NCBI GenBank assembly: GCA_003345555.1
Contig: PRDJ01000077.1
Location: 1 to 64,000, forward strand
Direction of reading: 5' to 3'
Source: Candidatus Thorarchaeota archaeon
Lineage (GTDB): Archaea > Asgardarchaeota > Thorarchaeia > Thorarchaeales > Thorarchaeaceae
Length of the DNA: 64,000 nucleotides
In this document: positions 27,726 to 62,110 of the stretch, piece by piece
Layout: the number at the start of each line of letters is the position of its first letter
How positions within the stretch are numbered: position 1 is the first letter of the stretch
Program-made: the position numbers and the translations under genes
The notes under the pieces: model-generated
What the model was told of the DNA's origin: nothing
The model's input: the letters and a program-made list of their open reading frames with translations, nothing else
Databases searched by the model: none

Positions 27726-28550
27726 GTGACCATGATACCAAAGGGTTTGCACATAGGTACCTCCGGGTGGAGCTACAAGAAAGACTGGGCTGGTGTCTTC
27801 TATCACGGCAGCATGCCGATGCTCCAGCAGTATTTAGACTACTTCGATACTGCTGAGATAAATTCAACATTCTACGCTTTGCCAAAGCCAGAATTCGTGG
27901 GCCATCTAGCCAGTTCTCTCAGAGCAAGTGTCTTCTTTGCTGCGAAGATGCCGCGGGCAGTCACTCACGACAACCGGCTTGACTTGAGTGGTGAAGGTGG
28001 AACCGCACTAAACGAGTTCCTCACTTTGATGACCCCGCTGGAGAAGCATTTGGCAGTGTTGCTGGTTCAGTTGCCTCCCTGGGAACCGTCAAGACTAGGA
28101 GATCTAGAGTCATTCCTTGCAAACCTTGATCCGAAGTTCAGGTATGCTGTCGAGTTCCGGCACGAGTCGTGGTTGACGGCACACACATGGAAAACCCTTG
28201 AGGATCATAATGTTGGATATGTGATTGTTGATGAACCCAGGCTCTCAATTGACTTACGTGTGACGACAGATTTCTCATATATTCGATGGCATGGCCACGG
28301 CAATAGACCTTGGTACAACTATCGTTATTCTATAGAGGAGCTCCAAGAATGGCAACCCCGGCTTGAACAATTGGGTGACATGACTAAGAGCATTCTGGGG
28401 TATTTCAACAACCACTTTAGTGGTAATGCTCCCTTGAATGCATTGCAGATGCTAAAGCTGATGAATCTGACGAGTCCGGCGCAAGAGGCAAAGCTTGAAC
28501 GGATCTTGGGTCGCGGCGAAGCTGTCCAGGCGTCTCTGGACGAGTTTTGA
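27726..28550 (+). CDS. DUF72 (YecE-like) TIM-barrel protein
   Basis: The 274-residue protein matches DUF72: an N-terminal IGTSGWSYKKDWAGVFY, the strand EINSTFYALP, VQLPPW, YAVEFRHESW and FSYIRWHGHG. All are hallmark blocks of the family. DUF72 proteins are TIM barrels of unsettled function, with hints of nucleic acid or phosphate binding. GTG 27726 or ATG 27732 is the start. It ends just before the eL13 region, on the same strand. Confidence 0.9.
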   Translation: MTMIPKGLHIGTSGWSYKKDWAGVFYHGSMPMLQQYLDYFDTAEINSTFYALPKPEFVGHLASSLRASVFFAAKMPRAVTHDNRLDLSGEGGTALNEFLTLMTPLEKHLAVLLVQLPPWEPSRLGDLESFLANLDPKFRYAVEFRHESWLTAHTWKTLEDHNVGYVIVDEPRLSIDLRVTTDFSYIRWHGHGNRPWYNYRYSIEELQEWQPRLEQLGDMTKSILGYFNNHFSGNAPLNALQMLKLMNLTSPAQEAKLERILGRGEAVQASLDEF

Positions 28551-28648
28551 CTGCTGCTGCAGAGGCCTCCAATCTCCTGAGGGCTGTTCACCTCGAAAGG
28601 CTAATAAGGCCACCCAAGGGTCGGGTGCTGAGTCAGGTGAACCAGCAC

Positions 28649-29095
28649 ATGAACCCTGATGTTGGAAACGAACCTACCGTCAAATCATCGAGAACACTGC
28701 AACCCCGGCCAGGTCGTGGTTTCAGTCTTGGTGAGATTAACGAAGCTGGACTCGCCTTGAAGACCGCACGGGCGATGGGCCTTATTGTTGATATGCGTAG
28801 AGAGACGTCGCATGAGGATAACATTGAAGCTCTCAAGCAATACATGAAGGCAGCGGGTGAACGTGCACTAGCCCGACCAGCAGGACCAGCACCGCTAGTA
28901 GATACCGATGCTGTGATTACGGAACTGACTTCGATTCGAGCGGTGAAGAAGGCGGATGCGGCGAAGCTTGTCGACGCAGGAATAAGGTCACTCTCAGATC
29001 TTGCGTACTGTGAAATCGGTAAAGTGTCAAAGAAGACAGGTATTGAGAAGGAGCGCCTGACTGCCATAGTGCGGGCTGCGCTCAAGAAAGTCTAG
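28649..29095 (+). CDS. rpl13e: Ribosomal protein eL13 with C-terminal helix-hairpin-helix
   Basis: From ATG 28649 (AGGTGA eight bases upstream) the 148-residue protein has the eL13 core: VKSSRTLQPRPGRGFSLGE, INEAGLALKTARAMG and VDMRRETSHEDNIEALK. After a short linker, residues 85-148 form a helix-hairpin-helix unit (VKKADAAKLVDAGIRSLSDL, then ISKKTGI-like KVSKKTGIEKERL). eL13 belongs to the large subunit in eukaryotes and some archaea. The tail is an addition relative to short archaeal forms. The open frame upstream of 28649 overlaps the DUF72 end and has no similarity. Confidence 0.85.
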   Translation: MNPDVGNEPTVKSSRTLQPRPGRGFSLGEINEAGLALKTARAMGLIVDMRRETSHEDNIEALKQYMKAAGERALARPAGPAPLVDTDAVITELTSIRAVKKADAAKLVDAGIRSLSDLAYCEIGKVSKKTGIEKERLTAIVRAALKKV

Positions 29096-30277: not shown

Positions 30278-31210
30278 TTGGCGCTTGAACATATCCTTGG
30301 TAAGTTGAAGTACGACGGTTCCGTCACCGGGTTTGCACTTCTGACCAACAATGGTCAACCCTTTCTGTCGTTCTCCTTACCAGAGGAATTGCTTCCTCAG
30401 ATCCATGGTGCCTTGAGAATTCACGCATCATCACTGAAACTAGTCAATGTGATGACGAAACAAGGAACTCTGATTCTGGCCCGAGTGGATCCAAACTGGA
30501 TACTTGCTGTACACTTCTCAGAGGAATCACTGGGGTCGGCTCTTCAGAAGACTAAAACGGTTGTGGATATGCTCGAGCAAGTCGAGCTGCCTCCGCCACC
30601 ATCCAACATTGCCACCGAGTTGCCTGTCGAGGCTGTGGAGGAAGTGCCTGAAGACCTCAGCCCCGAGATTGAGAAGATGAAGGCTGCCACGATAACAGAG
30701 GGTGCAGAGGTAGGTGTACCCGAGGCAGGTCTCGTTGTTGTCAGGCATGGCTGTATCGTGCACCACGGACCAAGGTACACCGATGCCGTTACTCTCGGCT
30801 CACCTCTCAATCGACTGCTCAAAGACAAATCGGCAAAGTTCGCGGTCGACGTGCTCTTGCTGGCGGATGAGAAACGGACTGTCTTCAAGATATCACAAGA
30901 ACTCGGAAAATCTGTTGAAAGAGTGATTGATGTCGTGACTTGGTGTGTATCGGAGCGTATCTTGACCGTTGAATGTCCGGAAGAGCAGGAAGCCGGGGTT
31001 GCACCGATAGTTGAATACCCATTATATGAGGGCGACCTGAAAAAGGCCAAGAAAGAGCATCAGGCAGTCCTCATGTTATGCGACGGTGTTCACACTGTTC
31101 AGGACATAGCAGCGGAGCTCAACATACCATACTTCAAGGCATTGCAGAGCATCGTACCATATCGAGGAAAGACTGTCAAGTTTGTTGGCAAAGACAAAGC
31201 TGGCGAATGA
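30278..31210 (+). CDS. Roadblock-like domain protein with two winged-helix-like repeats (copy A)
   Basis: The 310-residue product starts at TTG 30278 after GGAAG. Residues 1-100 look like a roadblock/LC7-type fold (FALLTNNGQPFLSFSLPE, then VDPNWILAVHFSEESLGSAL). A proline/acidic linker follows, then two winged-helix-like repeats near 185-240 (FAVDVLLLADEKRTVFKISQE) and 255-305 (LMLCDGVHTVQDIAAEL). The protein at 33134-34135 is a clear paralogue with the same order. Roadblock proteins in eukaryotes and bacteria bind small GTPases. It is followed 23 bases later by a Bet3/V4R gene, suggesting they act together. Confidence 0.72.
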   Translation: MALEHILGKLKYDGSVTGFALLTNNGQPFLSFSLPEELLPQIHGALRIHASSLKLVNVMTKQGTLILARVDPNWILAVHFSEESLGSALQKTKTVVDMLEQVELPPPPSNIATELPVEAVEEVPEDLSPEIEKMKAATITEGAEVGVPEAGLVVVRHGCIVHHGPRYTDAVTLGSPLNRLLKDKSAKFAVDVLLLADEKRTVFKISQELGKSVERVIDVVTWCVSERILTVECPEEQEAGVAPIVEYPLYEGDLKKAKKEHQAVLMLCDGVHTVQDIAAELNIPYFKALQSIVPYRGKTVKFVGKDKAGE

Positions 31211-31233
31211 CGAACAGAACGGAGGACTAACAA

Positions 31234-31740
31234 ATGGGCGTCAAAGGTTCATTGGCTTGGAGTTTGAAAATCCCGAAAGTATCGAAACCACTGTTTCAGG
31301 CAACTTACAGAGAACTCATGAATTACCTGATCCAGACAAGTTCAAACGTTGATGAAATCAATCAGAAACTGAAGGAGATAGGCTTCAAGGTCGGAGAATA
31401 TCTCCTTATGGACTATGCAGACAGGATAAGGAAGCATGCAGTAGCATTTCATCAATTTGCATCGACTCTTCAGCTAGCATACAAAGTGAATTCGGGACAG
31501 GAGTTTACTTCTATTTGGATCAGCGATGACCGTCGCGTGGTCAAGTTTACAGACGTAAAGTGCCCGATATGCGAAGGCGTTGAAATCAAGGACTTGCCCG
31601 GACTGCAATACTGCAATCTTGTGAGCGGCGTATTCCAAGCTGTTCTTACGCTTAGAGGTTTCAATGGCGATTCCTATCAGGAGTCTTGCAGGGCTGTTGG
31701 AGACGACGCATGCACATGGACTATCAAGTTGCTTGAGTGA
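31234..31740 (+). CDS. Bet3/V4R (TRAPP-like) domain protein (copy A)
   Basis: The 168-residue product resembles TRAPP Bet3-family subunits and V4R domains. The N-terminal helices contain NVDEINQKLKEIGFKVGEYL, similar to the Bet3 'V-N-x-x-L-x-x-x-G-x-x-I-G' pattern. The core has CPICEG and LPGLQYCNLVSGVFQAVL, and the end QESCRAVGDDACTWTIKLL is the V4R cysteine-containing hairpin. In eukaryotes Bet3 forms the core of the TRAPP exchange factor for Rab GTPases. Its place directly after a roadblock-like gene, repeated at 33134-34641, supports a joint function. A small-ligand-binding V4R role is the alternative. Confidence 0.78.
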   Translation: MGVKGSLAWSLKIPKVSKPLFQATYRELMNYLIQTSSNVDEINQKLKEIGFKVGEYLLMDYADRIRKHAVAFHQFASTLQLAYKVNSGQEFTSIWISDDRRVVKFTDVKCPICEGVEIKDLPGLQYCNLVSGVFQAVLTLRGFNGDSYQESCRAVGDDACTWTIKLLE

Positions 31741-31860
31741 CGATACTGACAGTCTGCGGTCTACTATCACAGAATGCCCCCTTGCCAATAACAGCTAACA
31801 TATCTTAAAATGGACTAATCACAAGGCAGTGTATGCCACGTGCCTTAGGGTGAGTCAGGA

Positions 31861-32376
31861 TTGGGTCAGTTCATTGGTACCCTTGTGGGTCTGATTGTAG
31901 GATTTGTGCTCTCTTTCGCTATTCTTACGCTCGGGACCGTAATGCCTGAAGCGCTGATTCCTTCTAGCATAGTGGCAGATTTTCTTTCGCGTCCCGACCT
32001 AGAAGTGAGGCTGGCTATCGCAGGCACAGTGATGTATCCCTCGGCATTTGGATCCATAAGCCTTGGCGGCATGCTTCACATGGGAGCCAGTAGTGCAACA
32101 GTATTGATGTTCCTAGCATGGGGCACGGGTGGGCTTGTTGCCGGATTGCTGGCACGCGGACCAGTACAGGGAATATTCGCGGGCGTTTTTTCAGTCATAC
32201 TTGGTGCCCTTCTAATCTGGCTCTTGGTTTTCTTCATTCAGACCCCTGACTTCAGTGCAATCTTTGGTACAGGGTCTATGCTCATCTTGCAGGCCGCATT
32301 TGAAGGCACAGTCTACCCTCTCATCGGCGTTGGAGTCGGAGGTCTTTTGGGGGGCGCTATTAGTAGAGAGCGCTGA
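31861..32376 (+). CDS. Four-helix glycine-rich membrane protein
   Basis: The 171-residue protein (TTG 31861) has about four or five hydrophobic helices rich in glycine (LVGLIVGFVLSFAI, VLMFLAWGTGGLVAGLL, IFAGVFSVILGALLIWLLVFF, VGVGGLLGGAI). It ends SRER. No family is recognised. It lies between the two roadblock/Bet3 pairs on the same strand and could anchor their products at the membrane, which is inference only. Confidence 0.65.
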   Translation: MGQFIGTLVGLIVGFVLSFAILTLGTVMPEALIPSSIVADFLSRPDLEVRLAIAGTVMYPSAFGSISLGGMLHMGASSATVLMFLAWGTGGLVAGLLARGPVQGIFAGVFSVILGALLIWLLVFFIQTPDFSAIFGTGSMLILQAAFEGTVYPLIGVGVGGLLGGAISRER

Positions 32377-32399
32377 CCCATTCAGTCGTGGAAAGCTGT

Positions 32400-32966
32400 C
32401 TATTGAGCGTCGGACCCCGTCAGTTGCCTTCCACACTCGGAACAAAAAACCGGCCTCGATTTGAAGACTGCACCACACTCACAGACAGTCTCAATCTTCT
32501 CTGGTGGCGTAGCCTCGCCGCTTGTTAACCACGCTGCAGACAGACTAATCGGAATGCAGCTAAGGAGAGACAGAGGTGACGCAATCAGGCTTGATGTGAA
32601 CAGAGTGATTAAGTCCATGTTTCTGCTCGGCGAATACCAAAATGATGGATTGGTGATGAGGATGGAGCCCGTCGCCAACAACGCGATAAACAGGCCGACC
32701 CATAATGCGCTTCGAAGTGCATTCCAGTTCGGTTTCGAAAACGGGGCAATTGCGAGACCTATGATAAGCCACGCTACTACGTACTGACCTGAGACTGCCC
32801 AGTCCATTAAGCCCAATAGTGTTGATTGAAGCAGAACGCTCCCTGACAAAAGGAACGATACGGTATTGAACGGTTCGGGGTAAACAGTCTGAGGTAGCGC
32901 TCGCAGCCACACTATGAAGAGGCATCCCACTACTGCTCCAACCAAACCTCCGAGCGCATTTCTCAT
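32400..32966 (-). CDS. Four-helix membrane protein with C-terminal zinc ribbon
   Basis: Starting at ATG 32966 (or ATG 32972) the product has about 188 residues. Hydrophobic helices cover GGLVGAVVGCLFIVWL, VSFLLSGSVLLQSTLLGL, VVAWLIIGLAIAP, LWVGLFIALLATG and LSLLSCIPISLSAAWL. The C-terminal tail has C-x-C and C-x2-C pairs (CECGAVF, CSECGRQ), a zinc ribbon on the cytoplasmic side. It resembles the 31861 protein in size and topology but runs on the opposite strand. Function unknown. Confidence 0.65.
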   Translation of the reverse strand: MRNALGGLVGAVVGCLFIVWLRALPQTVYPEPFNTVSFLLSGSVLLQSTLLGLMDWAVSGQYVVAWLIIGLAIAPFSKPNWNALRSALWVGLFIALLATGSILITNPSFWYSPSRNMDLITLFTSSLIASPLSLLSCIPISLSAAWLTSGEATPPEKIETVCECGAVFKSRPVFCSECGRQLTGSDAQ

Positions 32967-33133
32967 TTCCATCCCATACCGAGACGACTGGTCACGCGTC
33001 CGGCACTGCATGAGCTCTTAACACTTTTCGTCCATAAGCATATCAATCACCACAATGCTTTTCTGACCAGCCTGGGAAATATCATCGAAAACACGTGGGA
33101 CCGGCTATGCGAAGTGACTCGAGGTGTTGATTC

Positions 33134-34135
33134 ATGGCGGGAGACCTTGAACGTGCTCTCTCCAAGCTAAGAACTGACAATCAGGTGTTAGGGTATTCCC
33201 TGATGACCAAAGTGGGGCGGCCGTTTATCAGCTTCTCGTTTCCCGGTGACATATTCCCGCGTGTAAAAGATAGCATCAAGCTCTACAAGTCGGATCTTCG
33301 GCTCATGACGATTGACACCGAGAAAGGACTTGTGGTGTTGTCACCAGTGGATGCCAACTGGATTCTGACCGTGCTTTACATACACGAGCTTCAGCTGGGG
33401 GTGGCAATAGCCAAGACAAAGAATGTCCTTAGGTTGCTGGAAGGGATTGAATTGCCTCCTCCCCCTGAAGACTTCGAAGACTCTGCTGAAGCCAACCTTC
33501 AGGTACTTCAGAGCATTGCGATCAAAGCGGCGTCGACAGCCCCTGGGGCATCCGAAGCGGTGATGACATCCCCTCAGGCCAAGTCTTTGCCTTCTGTTGC
33601 ACCTGCCCCGAAGGCCGCGATTGAGAAGCAATCGCCGAGTCCAGATGATTTCTATGTTCTGCCTACCACGATTCCGAAAAAGGGCGAGACCCATTCTAAT
33701 GCTCTCTCTCTTGACTCTGTACTTTGTTCAGAGATGAAGAAGGTATACAGAAACTTCGGATTCGACGTGCTGATGTTGGTCGATGGGAGCCGCACGGTCA
33801 CACAGATAGCCGAGTCCATGTTTCAGCCAAACGAAAGAGTCGCGTCATTCCTGAAGTGGGCTGCATCAAAAGGCATCGTGGCCTTACCTGAAGCCAAGGA
33901 AAGAACTCCCGAGGAGAAGGCGAGTCCTTCGATGGGCCGCTTTGTGAAGTGTCCCCTGTTTGAGGGAGACCTGAGCAAGGTCAAGAGCGAGGATGTCCCG
34001 ATATTGAAGCTCTGTGATGGTTCAAGGACACCAGAGAAAATTGCAGAGGAGACAGGCAGTCCACAAGTGAGAGTCATTCAAGTGCTGGCGCTGTATCGTC
34101 GACTCGGGCTCAAAATGATCGGAAAGGCAGTCTAG
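33134..34135 (+). CDS. Roadblock-like domain protein with two winged-helix-like repeats (copy B)
   Basis: This 333-residue ATG-initiated protein is the paralogue of 30278-31210. The N-terminal roadblock-like part shares the PFISFSFP, VDANWILTV and IELPPPP blocks. A longer alanine/proline/serine linker (residues 115-190) separates it from the winged-helix-like repeats (FGFDVLMLVDGSRTVTQIAES and LKLCDGSRTPEKIAEETGS). The repeated LxDGxRTxxxIA motif marks each repeat. It is followed 32 bases later by a Bet3/V4R gene, repeating the gene order of copy A. Confidence 0.72.
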   Translation: MAGDLERALSKLRTDNQVLGYSLMTKVGRPFISFSFPGDIFPRVKDSIKLYKSDLRLMTIDTEKGLVVLSPVDANWILTVLYIHELQLGVAIAKTKNVLRLLEGIELPPPPEDFEDSAEANLQVLQSIAIKAASTAPGASEAVMTSPQAKSLPSVAPAPKAAIEKQSPSPDDFYVLPTTIPKKGETHSNALSLDSVLCSEMKKVYRNFGFDVLMLVDGSRTVTQIAESMFQPNERVASFLKWAASKGIVALPEAKERTPEEKASPSMGRFVKCPLFEGDLSKVKSEDVPILKLCDGSRTPEKIAEETGSPQVRVIQVLALYRRLGLKMIGKAV

Positions 34136-34167
34136 ACGTTCTTAGATTGCTCAAAGAGGTTTGATAA

Positions 34168-34641
34168 TTGCCAAAGATAGAGAATCCACTTCTTCTCAGC
34201 CTCTACTCCAAGGTCGTTGACCAGGTTCTGTCAGAGACCAACAACATCGACGAAGCGAATCGACGGCTGAGAGACATAGGACGCGAGGTGGGATCCCAGA
34301 TATACCTCACGACGGACATTGTGGATAGGACCAAGGATACTATTACGACTCGTGAAGATGTTTCGAAGCTGGTTGAAATCATCTTCAGGGTGCTCTACGA
34401 CAAGAAGCCAACGTTAGTAGACATGGAGACAGCTCGTGGCTCAGTCAGAGTAACGGACGAGTCGTGTATCTGGTGTCAGGACGTTCATCTCGAAGGCATG
34501 GCCGGTTTCGGCTACTGCGAAGTTTTCAGTGGCATATTGGAGTCCCTGCTAGCTTTCAAGGGTGTCGAGGCCAAGGTCTTCCAGGAAATGTGCCGTGCAA
34601 CAGGCGCTGACAGCTGCGAATGGAATATCCGCTTGCAGTAG
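34168..34641 (+). CDS. Bet3/V4R (TRAPP-like) domain protein (copy B)
   Basis: The 157-residue protein starts at TTG 34168 with GAGG nine bases upstream. NIDEANRRLRDIGREVGSQI corresponds to the Bet3 helix block; CIWCQD, GFGYCEVFSGILESLLAF and QEMCRATGADSCEWNI form the V4R-type core and hairpin. Compared with copy A it lacks about ten N-terminal residues. The paired cysteines may hold zinc or form a ligand pocket. It probably forms homo- or heterodimers with the neighbouring Bet3-like proteins, as Bet3 subunits do. Confidence 0.78.
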   Translation: MPKIENPLLLSLYSKVVDQVLSETNNIDEANRRLRDIGREVGSQIYLTTDIVDRTKDTITTREDVSKLVEIIFRVLYDKKPTLVDMETARGSVRVTDESCIWCQDVHLEGMAGFGYCEVFSGILESLLAFKGVEAKVFQEMCRATGADSCEWNIRLQ

Positions 34642-34702
34642 GAAAACCATCACAAAGAACTTAACGCTGGATGAGAAACAGCCGCTGGCGAGAGAGACTC
34701 CT

Positions 34703-35251
34703 ATGTCGAAGACTCCAGAGGCTGTTCCTTGGTGGCTGGGCAAGCTAAAAGAACGCGACCTCATGAGGGCATTTTTTGCAAAGACGTGGACCAAAATCGG
34801 CAACAGAGTCGAAGTTATGTTTCCCGACAAAGTCCGCGATCTCTATTACAGCGCTGGTCGGCTCGCGGGTCTTGAGACGCAACGCGAGTATTTCAAACTG
34901 GGGAGGCAGAGGCCGCCCGGTGACTTCAAGGGCATTGTTGAGTTTATCAAGATGGCGCTCTCTATCCTGATAGTTCCATTCGGCGATGTCAAAATATCTC
35001 GCCTCTACAAGCTATTCTTGGATGAAGAGGCAGTGATAGAGATTCAAGACAACCCATATGCATCAGGCATGAAAACACCCGAGCCTTCGTGTTACTTCTT
35101 AAGAGGCTTCATCGAAGCCGTCCTCGAGTATCTGACTGATTCCAACAAGATTGTGTACGAGAAACTCGTCGTTGTAGAGGAGACATGCATGGCTTCAGGC
35201 GGCGAGGCATGCACCTTCAAGATGACACTGACCTACCCTGCCCGCGGCTGA
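34703..35251 (+). CDS. Third Bet3/V4R-like protein
   Basis: ATG 34703 gives 182 residues; the longer frame upstream overlaps copy B and is not similar to anything. The core has SCYFLRGFIEAVLEYL and the C-terminal hairpin EETCMASGGEACTFKMTL, the same plan as copies A and B. The N-terminal part is longer and basic, with an LYYSAGRLAG block in place of the G-x-x-x-G helix, and it lacks the CxxC of the others. It is divergent enough to serve as a distinct subunit of a hetero-oligomer. Confidence 0.7.
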   Translation: MSKTPEAVPWWLGKLKERDLMRAFFAKTWTKIGNRVEVMFPDKVRDLYYSAGRLAGLETQREYFKLGRQRPPGDFKGIVEFIKMALSILIVPFGDVKISRLYKLFLDEEAVIEIQDNPYASGMKTPEPSCYFLRGFIEAVLEYLTDSNKIVYEKLVVVEETCMASGGEACTFKMTLTYPARG

Positions 35252-50926: not shown

Positions 50927-51469
50927 ATGGTGTCAGTGTCTACGAACTTCGACTTCATGAGGAAAGTCGTTATGATTGGCGCGGGCGGAAGTGGGAAGAC
51001 CGCACTCGTCAATCGCTTTCTCACTCAGAAGTTCTCGGAGCAGTACATTGTAACCATAGGGTCCCAGTTTGCAGTCAAGACAGTCACTGTGGAGAATTTC
51101 AACGGGCACAGCGTGATTGTAAAGCTCCTTGTTTGGGATTTGGCGGGTCAAGAGCGTTTCGATTTCATTCGCAGTAGTTACTACAAAGGATCCAAAGGAG
51201 CGCTATTGGTTTACGATACGACTCGAAGGAACACTTGGGCTGAGTTGCCCAAATGGATTGAAGAGACTGACAACGCGCTCGGACAGCGAATACCGATTAT
51301 ACTCCTTGCAAACAAGGTTGACTTGGCGAACGAGCGCGTCATTACTCCTGAGATGGGAAAAGCATTCGTCCAAGAGCACGGTCTTGTTGGTTATCTGGAA
51401 ACGAGTGCACTTAACGGACAAAACGTAGAAGAAGCATTTACGCTCCTAGCGAGGTCAAGCATTTCCTAG
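50927..51469 (+). CDS. Rab/Ras-like small GTPase
   Basis: The 180-residue protein has all G motifs: G1 GAGGSGKT at 18-25, the G2 threonine T43 in YIVTIGSQ, G3 WDLAGQERF (D71 to Q75), G4 NKVD at 129-132 and G5 ETSA at 158-161. The Gln75 equivalent of Ras Q61 is kept, so intrinsic or activator-assisted hydrolysis is likely. The WDLAGQE signature and NKVD/ETSA pair are of the Rab/Ras type more than Arf. There is no C-terminal CAAX or CC, so no prenyl anchor. No operon partner is on this strand. ATG 50927 is used, ATG 50957 possible. Confidence 0.92.
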   Translation: MVSVSTNFDFMRKVVMIGAGGSGKTALVNRFLTQKFSEQYIVTIGSQFAVKTVTVENFNGHSVIVKLLVWDLAGQERFDFIRSSYYKGSKGALLVYDTTRRNTWAELPKWIEETDNALGQRIPIILLANKVDLANERVITPEMGKAFVQEHGLVGYLETSALNGQNVEEAFTLLARSSIS

Positions 51470-60460: not shown

Positions 60461-62110
60461 ATGATTCACAATACTTTCCTTGTCTATGGGCGAAAGATCC
60501 TCGCCTCATCTCAGTACTGGCCAACTACGGTGACTCCTGATGAAATCAACGAGTTCATCACAACGAGGGCGGACCTTCTCGCAGAGCATGGGGGTTTCAT
60601 GGATCTTCCGCTTATTGTTGGAGACAAGAAATTCCTTGCCCGGTCTGTCGAATCTGACATGCTGCTCATCTTTGTCAGTGACACGGGAGAAGATGAGCAT
60701 GTCATCTCCGAGAGACTAGACTCTGCAGCCAAGGAGCTAGGAAAGAAAATCAGAGCAAGCGGAGTTCGTGGTGTCGCGAAGCAGTACGCGTCACTCATTG
60801 AACCCATGATTACGACTCGACTCAAGATTGCCCTCGTGGGAGAGGGCGGAGTCGGAAAGACCACAACTCTGCAACTCCTCTTAGGCAACAGTCCTCCCCT
60901 ATCATACGTGCCGACGATTGCGCTGAACCTTGAAACGGTCGAGAATATTCGCTTCGGCAGCTATTCTCTTGTCCTCTGGGACTTCGCCGGTCAAGAGCGT
61001 TTCCGGACTCTGTGGAAGTTCTACTTTCATGGCGCTGATGTAATATTCTTGGTGTGTGATTCTACCTTGCGCAACGTGATTATCAGCAAGGACATACTGA
61101 AACTAATCAGACGCGACGCGCCCAAGGTACCTGTCTTTGCATTGGCGAACAAACAAGACAAGCCTAATGCAATGAAGCCCGAAGTCATTCAGAAGATTCT
61201 CGGCGTTCCCACATATCCTATGGTGGCAATCGACAGAGAGCGCAGAGATGAAATGCTCAAGATACTCTTGACGGCTGCTGCTCAGTACGTCGGTGTAACG
61301 TTACCTGACGTACCCACATCAGAGCTATTCAGATTCAGTGACCAAGCTGTAAAGGGTGCGGTGAAGGGCAAGGCCGCTGCTCGCGAACACAAAGAGCCGG
61401 AAGAAGCGCCGCCGGAGGAAGTCGTAGAGGAAGTCCTGATTGACGAGCAGGGAAATGTGGTTGAGGCTTCAGAGGAATATGAGGTAGTCGATGAAGTAGT
61501 AGAGGTCCTCGATGAGCCGTCGGAGACTGCGCATGTTCCAAGCCCAGCATCTGTAGAGCAGGCGCCTCGGGAAGAGGGCGAGGCAGCGGAGGCTGGCTTT
61601 GACATCGCAACCAGCGGCGCGGAATCCTTGGCAGAGGAAACAGGGCCAATGGTTAGCATGGATGCTGAAGAGCGACGCGAGGACTTGTTCTCGGCCTCTG
61701 AGAGAATCAGCGGTTCTTCCGACACGATGTCGGCGACAGTTGCTAAACAGCTGATTTCCGATGCCCTCGATGCAGACGATATAGTTGCCGCAGAGATAGA
61801 TCGTATTCCTCGTGAACATCTGGGTGCAGCAGTCGACGCCATCCGGTGCGATGAGACTGTCTCATCAGAACCTGAGAAGGAAAGCGTGCACGCCGTAGGC
61901 GCAAAAGCTATGCGCGATTTAGACAAAGTCTTAGGTCCCTCCGCAAGCAAGGAAACGAGTTCTCCAGAAGTCCGCAAGGTGTCTGAGAGCCCGATGGACG
62001 TGGACGAAGAGACAATCCGTGAACTTGGTGCCATAATAGAAAAGCAAGAATCAGATACGAAATCGGAGTCTGGCCAAGCCAGGATGTTGCTTGACGACGA
62101 AGAAGATTAG
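60461..62110 (+). CDS. Longin-like domain fused to Arf-like small GTPase with long acidic tail
   Basis: The 549-residue protein has three parts. Residues 1-112 form a longin/SRX-like fold (NTFLVYGRKILASSQYW, LIVGDKKFLARSVESDMLLIFV, ISERLDSAAKELGKKI). Residues 120-290 are a small GTPase: G1 GEGGVGKT 127-134, G2 T152 in VPTIALNLE, G3 WDFAGQERF (D174 to Q178), G4 NKQD 230-233. TIALNLE and NKQD point to the Arf/SRbeta type. Residues 310-549 are highly acidic and probably disordered, with SESGQARMLLDDEED at the end. The Gln178 is retained. Longin plus Arf-like GTPase are paired as separate chains in the SRP receptor. Confidence 0.85.
   Translation: MIHNTFLVYGRKILASSQYWPTTVTPDEINEFITTRADLLAEHGGFMDLPLIVGDKKFLARSVESDMLLIFVSDTGEDEHVISERLDSAAKELGKKIRASGVRGVAKQYASLIEPMITTRLKIALVGEGGVGKTTTLQLLLGNSPPLSYVPTIALNLETVENIRFGSYSLVLWDFAGQERFRTLWKFYFHGADVIFLVCDSTLRNVIISKDILKLIRRDAPKVPVFALANKQDKPNAMKPEVIQKILGVPTYPMVAIDRERRDEMLKILLTAAAQYVGVTLPDVPTSELFRFSDQAVKGAVKGKAAAREHKEPEEAPPEEVVEEVLIDEQGNVVEASEEYEVVDEVVEVLDEPSETAHVPSPASVEQAPREEGEAAEAGFDIATSGAESLAEETGPMVSMDAEERREDLFSASERISGSSDTMSATVAKQLISDALDADDIVAAEIDRIPREHLGAAVDAIRCDETVSSEPEKESVHAVGAKAMRDLDKVLGPSASKETSSPEVRKVSESPMDVDEETIRELGAIIEKQESDTKSESGQARMLLDDEED

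Follow-up and report, generated by a model that had tools for sequence, protein, structure and literature searches.

Paired roadblock and Bet3-type genes in Thorarchaeota and other Asgard archaea: a possible TRAPP-like regulator of small GTPases

A 64,000-nucleotide stretch of Thorarchaeota DNA (the window; contig PRDJ01000077.1 of assembly GCA_003345555.1, contig C77 of a 2.28 Mb draft genome) contains an operon in which a gene for a roadblock-like protein with winged helices stands directly upstream of a gene for a protein of the Bet3/transport protein particle (TRAPP) family. The arrangement occurs twice (RB1 with TRAPP-A, and RB2 with TRAPP-B) and is followed by a third Bet3-fold gene, V4R-C (Table 1). 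An earlier note, made from the sequence alone, had placed two such pairs, each with at most 35 bases between its genes, and a third Bet3-like gene after the second pair; the open reading frames bear this out, with gaps of 23 bases (RB1/TRAPP-A) and 32 bases (RB2/TRAPP-B). A gene of roadblock or longin type with a C-terminal winged helix (hereafter platform gene) adjoins or is fused with a Bet3-type gene in nine of the 12 Asgard families inspected, Thorarchaeota included. We give about an even chance to the reading that this module of roadblock/longin platform and Bet3 proteins is a TRAPP-like regulator of small GTPases at the cell membrane.

Folds of the paired proteins

The three small proteins belong to the Bet3 family, as the earlier note had proposed. 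TRAPP-A and TRAPP-B matched Pfam TRAPP (E 2.7e-8 and 2.4e-8), and V4R-C matched Pfam V4R (1.3e-10), all above the gathering cut-off. predicted local distance difference test score (pLDDT) 77.9, predicted template modelling score (pTM) 0.76), and its top Foldseek matches were mouse Bet3p (best, E 8.9e-6) and Naegleria Bet3. TRAPP-B is the orthologue of Thor-TRAPPC3 (phmmer E 7.9e-77), which has been crystallised (7YH3 and 7YH2), as have Asgard roadblocks (Tran et al. 2024, PMC10933270). In SMTZ1-45, the TRAPP-B orthologue (L124) is identical to 7YH3 over the compared residues and lies 23 bases after RB2; the gene of the crystallised protein itself sits within an RB/TRAPP operon. TRAPP-A matched 7YH3 at 5.9e-23 and eukaryotic TRAPPC3 at 1e-7. 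Both TRAPP-A and TRAPP-B retain the CxxC, the YC and the last Cys that make up the four zinc-binding cysteines of Thor-TRAPPC3, and CxxC is absent from the V4R-C sequence. On a single duplication of the whole pair as the origin of both copies, TRAPP-A and TRAPP-B did not group in the tree, and a common clade was not rejected either (approximately unbiased test, p-AU 0.33). An Asgard Bet3 profile matched TRAPPC3, BET3, TRAPPC5 and TRAPPC6 in PDB at 1.7e-15 to 2e-8; all of its confident sequence matches there were TRAPP subunits, with no bacterial V4R protein among the matches listed.

The N-terminus of TRAPP-A (window 31234-31300) carries the motif MG(V/I/L)KGxx(A/G)W..K, shared by TRAPP-A-type genes of about 10 Asgard families and absent from TRAPP-B. 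A TRAPP-A remnant in loci L110, L141 and L145 consists of the C-terminal 34-41 residues, and the RB1 frame stays open there.

The two larger proteins are paralogous, as also noted earlier: RB1 and RB2 match one another (35% identity, E 8e-47) and no other protein of their own genome, and close relatives in named genomes carry the label Candidatus Thorarchaeota in nearly every case. The AF2 model of RB2, built from 64 aligned sequences (mean pLDDT 85.9, pTM 0.40), shows, in the first 110 residues, an N-domain of roadblock topology, H-b-b-H-b-b-b-H (H2-14, E18-25, E30-34, H38-50, E58-61, E66-71, E76-82 and H88-102); a further helix comes next, and a disordered linker then leads to two winged helices. 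Foldseek matched this model to MK-D1 and Thorarchaeota roadblocks (9JUE, E 2e-6; 7F8M), LAMTOR2/3 and MglB (6IZW), and also aligned it over its full length with chains of GATOR1/SEAC structures. The N-domain profile A7, of which RB1 is a member, found mostly roadblocks in PDB (7F8M, 2.1e-4; 9JUE, 7.3e-3), with the dynein roadblock and one unrelated protein among its weaker matches. The Pfam Robl_LC7 model did not match RB2, and the Pfam matches of RB1 (HTH_47, 2e-5; DUF742, 8e-4) were both under cut-off. RB2 is thus predicted by AlphaFold, Foldseek and profile search to consist of a roadblock domain and two winged helices, and RB1 is assigned the same architecture by homology to RB2, in agreement with the roadblock-like/winged-helix description given earlier.

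Pairing of platform and Bet3-type genes

Across the phylum, a sensitive Bet3 profile (A3) picked out strong relatives from families f4-f7, f9-f14 and f16. The platform gene lies directly 5′ of the Bet3-type gene in f5, f11, f12, f13, f14 and f16, with gaps of -7 to 149 bases; the N-domain of the f14 gene is cut by the contig end. An overlapping three-gene operon, TRAPP-TRAPP-longin-winged helix, is also present in f13. Fusions occur in f7 (longin-TRAPP, no winged helix detected in the fusion) and in f10 (longin-like-winged helix-TRAPP, and longin-TRAPP). The earlier note had called for a search for the pair across Asgard genomes, and the pair does co-occur in related genomes, other Asgard families included. 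By an informal estimate this adjacency is not expected by chance, because A1-type winged-helix matches outside Thorarchaeota are so few (at most seven per genome among the genomes listed). Some Bet3 loci in families that have the pair are unpaired, two of them in G128 (C40). That the N-domain is a roadblock is firm for f1, has alignment support for the RB protein of f9, and is tentative for f5/f16 and f11/f12.

In Thorarchaeota, the order RB1-TRAPP-A-mem1-mem2-RB2-TRAPP-B-V4R-C recurs in the loci inspected, judged only where a locus is long enough to show the whole block, and the RB2/TRAPP-B gap is 13-39 bases in 32 loci. Because the entire glnA-lysS block is conserved in Thorarchaeota, synteny alone is weak evidence; it was dropped as sole proof, and weight was moved to other families, fusions and losses. 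RB1 and TRAPP-A are missing jointly from G012, where PfkB and mem1 are still present; both are also missing from G022, but the locus there contains runs of N.

Longin-like/TRAPP fusion proteins were seen at L158:3318-4208, L162:321-1736 and L097:3-1226, one of them with a winged helix between the two domains. The winged-helix partner of TRAPP in f9 (L147:1004-1486, L148:3836-4318 and L149:5472-5996) has an N-domain with a YCEKCKA-type motif. At L190:4042-6306 in f6, a longin-winged-helix gene and a longin-GTPase fusion gene form a row that includes no TRAPP gene.

Small GTPase genes beside the pair

The earlier note had linked the operon to small GTPases; Rab-like genes do adjoin the pair in relatives, and none is tied to the operon in Thorarchaeota. 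In f13 genome G057 (L163:1244-4864), three Rab-like genes, a longin-winged-helix gene and a TRAPP gene are consecutive on one strand, and G217 (L187:4281-7281) has the same row with two Rab-like genes. In f10 (L097), two Rab-like genes are divergent from a longin-TRAPP fusion. The best PDB matches of a longin profile (A8), built from the domains of f13, f10, f7 and f16, were BET5 (1.8e-3), TRAPPC1 (0.012) and again BET5 (0.018). The f13 longin protein also gave a weak match (0.028) to Pfam Sybindin, the Bet5/Trs23 family.

A TRAPP-like GTPase regulator, composed of a roadblock or longin platform and Bet3-type subunits, may already have been present in an ancestor shared by several Asgard lineages, in some of which a single operon holds a BET5-like longin, a Bet3-like protein and Rab-like GTPases. 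Eukaryotic TRAPP would in that case derive from an inherited complex and not just from folds inherited one by one. We hold this evolutionary step tentatively, with somewhat more doubt than belief.

The Thorarchaeota genome itself has 16 Ras-type and 12 roadblock matches. The nearest GTPases in the window lie 16 and 26 kb off the operon, the nearest Ras-type match being at 50963. The GTPases at 50927 and 60461, considered as clients, were set aside, since nothing ties either to the operon. Elsewhere in the genome (contig C10:519-2403), three roadblock matches surround one Ras-like GTPase match in an MglA/MglB-like arrangement.

Proposed working and alternative explanations

Beyond the folds, paralogy, pairing, fusions and GTPase neighbours in relatives, which are seen in sequences or models, we infer complex formation, a GTPase client, a catalytic sense and membrane anchoring as follows. 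The roadblock domains of RB1 and RB2 would dimerise, and the dimer could offer a docking surface for a GTPase of Rab or Rag type, in the manner of MglB, of LAMTOR and, within TRAPP, of the Bet5-Trs23 pair. TRAPP-A, TRAPP-B and V4R-C, as homo- or heterodimers, would attach to the platform protein, where they would stabilise the docked GTPase or adjust it; their cavity may hold a lipid or hydrophobic ligand that they read. The winged helices may be scaffold or partner-binding domains, and mem1 and mem2 would keep the assembly at the membrane. In the end the GTPase would change its nucleotide state, through exchange (by analogy with TRAPP) or hydrolysis (by analogy with GATOR1/MglB).

Several observations weigh against a TRAPP-like regulator. 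No GTPase gene stands beside the Thorarchaeota operon, either in the inspected loci or among the Ras-type matches of its own genome, and the platform domain in Thorarchaeota is a roadblock, not a longin. The C-terminal tail of Bet3, which in TRAPP extends to the Rab nucleotide site, has no counterpart, as the Asgard profile stops at or before residue 183 of the longer TRAPPC3 chains. Families f4 and f6 carry tandem Bet3-type genes without a platform gene, and in f9 the TRAPP partner is a winged-helix protein with a different, cysteine-bearing N-domain instead of a roadblock. For the N-domains of f11/f12, the PDB profile search found no roadblock and hhalign was weak; for f5/f16, two sequences alone gave no PDB match. 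The flanking genes, from glnA to lysS-like, are equally kept in order across Thorarchaeota, and some genomes of genus g4 (L110, L141 and L145) retain RB1 beside a TRAPP-A in which an internal deletion has removed the first ~130 residues. Tran et al. (PMC10933270) judged a ligand role more likely and concluded, on the basis of MK-D1, that GTPase genes as a rule do not share operons with those for RB, longin or TRAPPC3. GTPase regulation by the Thorarchaeota module is therefore no more than plausible, because the module lacks a neighbouring GTPase gene and the Bet3 tail, and a ligand-sensing regulator stands as the main rival.

That rival is a ligand-responsive transcription regulator, in which the V4R/Bet3 protein, like PoxR/MopR and MsvR, would pick up a signal of hydrophobic or redox nature and the winged helices of its partner would relay it to DNA. 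V4R domains in bacteria and archaea are ligand sensors for transcription factors. This, together with the basic C-terminal winged helix (in Thorarchaeota, as in the other families for which it was calculated, the pI is mostly 8-10), makes it a serious rival, although we consider it unlikely. The V4R sensor domains of PoxR/MopR are close in fold (Foldseek on V4R-C), weak MsvR matches were obtained, and the CxxC zinc-site motif is kept, as in prokaryotic V4R sensors (PoxR/MopR, MsvR, MJ1460); the ligand binding favoured by Tran et al. (2024, PMC10933270) would also fit. The Thorarchaeota proteins, unlike those sensors, are not fused to an output domain and are nearer in sequence to eukaryotic TRAPP subunits, to which all confident PDB matches of the Bet3 profile belong. 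A transcription regulator also leaves no clear role for the roadblock/longin domain or the membrane genes, and does not sit well with the Rab-like genes that adjoin the pair in f13 and f10 or with the f7 fusion, in which no winged helix was detected.

Less probable again is a membrane-associated carrier or scaffold for lipids or small molecules, in which Bet3 dimers would be mounted on a roadblock adaptor and no GTPase would be served. The internal cavities of Thor-TRAPPC3 resemble those of acyl-binding Bet3, and Thor-RB has been proposed as a scaffold (both PMC10933270); mem1 and mem2 travel with RB, and the Thorarchaeota operon has no GTPase. Set against this are the Rab-like genes that neighbour the module in f13 and f10, and the fact that platforms of roadblock and longin type, where the system is known, mostly bind GTPases.

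It is improbable that the module activates a GTPase of Rag type, after the fashion of GATOR1/NPRL2, in place of being a TRAPP-like exchange factor. In favour are the NPRL2-like longin proteins, an established Asgard family (PMC9834061), and what may be a comparable order of longin/roadblock and winged helices in the NPRL2-type proteins of GATOR1/SEAC, whose chains, taken without identity check, align with full-length RB2 in Foldseek (363-408 columns, rank 1, E 1.8e-6). Against it, the template modelling (TM) scores are ~0.2 because the domains are differently arranged, winged helices resemble many proteins, and the Bet3 partner, no part of GATOR1, points to TRAPP.

Comparison with known systems

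The candidate TRAPP-like module shares Bet3-family subunits with the eukaryotic TRAPP core (Bet3/TRAPPC3, C5, C6 and the Bet5/Trs23 longins) and, in f13, also places a BET5/TRAPPC1-like longin and Rab-like genes next to Bet3. It differs in that the Thorarchaeota roadblock-winged-helix protein replaces the longin pair, a Bet5/Trs23-type longin being found only in f13 and similar relatives, and in that the Asgard proteins have winged helices and no Bet3 C-terminal tail. MglB, the roadblock activator or exchange factor of the Ras-like GTPase MglA, matches RB2 in fold, whereas the Thorarchaeota operon has no GTPase and has added winged helices and Bet3 partners. Actinobacterial conservons consist of the roadblock protein CvnB, the DUF742 protein CvnC, the GTPase CvnD and the kinase CvnA. 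RB1 likewise joins a roadblock with a winged helix that resembles DUF742 below cut-off, but fused in one protein and with a Bet3 partner added; no conservon-type GTPase or sensor kinase gene stands beside the operon in the conserved Thorarchaeota block.

The earlier note suggested a GTPase-regulating complex not so far described, a wording that calls for some qualification. The parts are known, but Thor-TRAPPC3 was treated alone in PMC10933270, which is silent on its genomic neighbours in Thorarchaeota; Eme et al. 2023 (PMC10307638) mention TRAPP homologues and nothing further. No description of a conserved roadblock/longin-Bet3 pairing was found in the literature searched, with subscription papers and preprints largely outside the search. 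The crystallised Thor-TRAPPC3 gains a candidate partner, with gene pairs named for co-expression, and the question of TRAPP before eukaryotes moves from folds to complexes. Given the conserved pairing, and Rab-like genes ahead of it in one lineage, a pre-eukaryotic TRAPP-like complex becomes directly testable.

Gene layout and membrane-protein genes

Table 1. Genes of the Thorarchaeota operon (window coordinates)
Gene	Position	Strand	Description	Basis
RB1	30278-31210	+	Predicted roadblock domain ~1-107, linker, two winged-helix domains (~160-233, ~240-310)	
TRAPP-A	31234-31740	+	Bet3/TRAPPC3-type; MGVKGxLAW..K motif at the N-terminus; shares CxxC and two more Cys with Thor-TRAPPC3	
mem1	31861-32376	+	171 aa, hydrophobic, apparently multi-pass membrane protein	Synteny, alignment A9
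mem2	32400-33011	-	Membrane protein with C-terminal zinc ribbon	Alignment A10, phylum search
RB2	33134-34135	+	Predicted roadblock 1-105, helix 115-133, disordered linker, winged helices ~187-254 and ~270-333	AF2, Foldseek
TRAPP-B	34168-34641	+	Orthologue of crystallised Thor-TRAPPC3 (7YH3/7YH2)	phmmer
V4R-C	34703-35251	+	Third Bet3-fold protein, without CxxC zinc motif	Pfam V4R, AF2 model

The two pairs are real but not strictly adjacent as first described; mem1 and mem2, the membrane-protein genes that had been noticed beside the operon, lie between them on opposite strands at 31.8-33.0 kb. No Pfam family matched mem1. Homologues of mem1 and mem2 also flank the f9 RB gene (L055 and L056), with mem2 within ~1 kb of RB in all eight f9 genomes. 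As their homologues accompany RB in f9, both are likely to be part of the module. The credible start of V4R-C is the ATG at 34703; the listed GTG at 34562 would give an 80-base overlap with TRAPP-B.

Two other genes in the window drew attention. The one at 28547-29095, just upstream of the operon, encodes a protein that begins with a ribosomal L13e-like domain and ends in a helix-hairpin-helix domain, and that at 60461-62110 a 549-aa protein in which an Arf/Rag-like GTPase domain is flanked by two uncharacterised regions.

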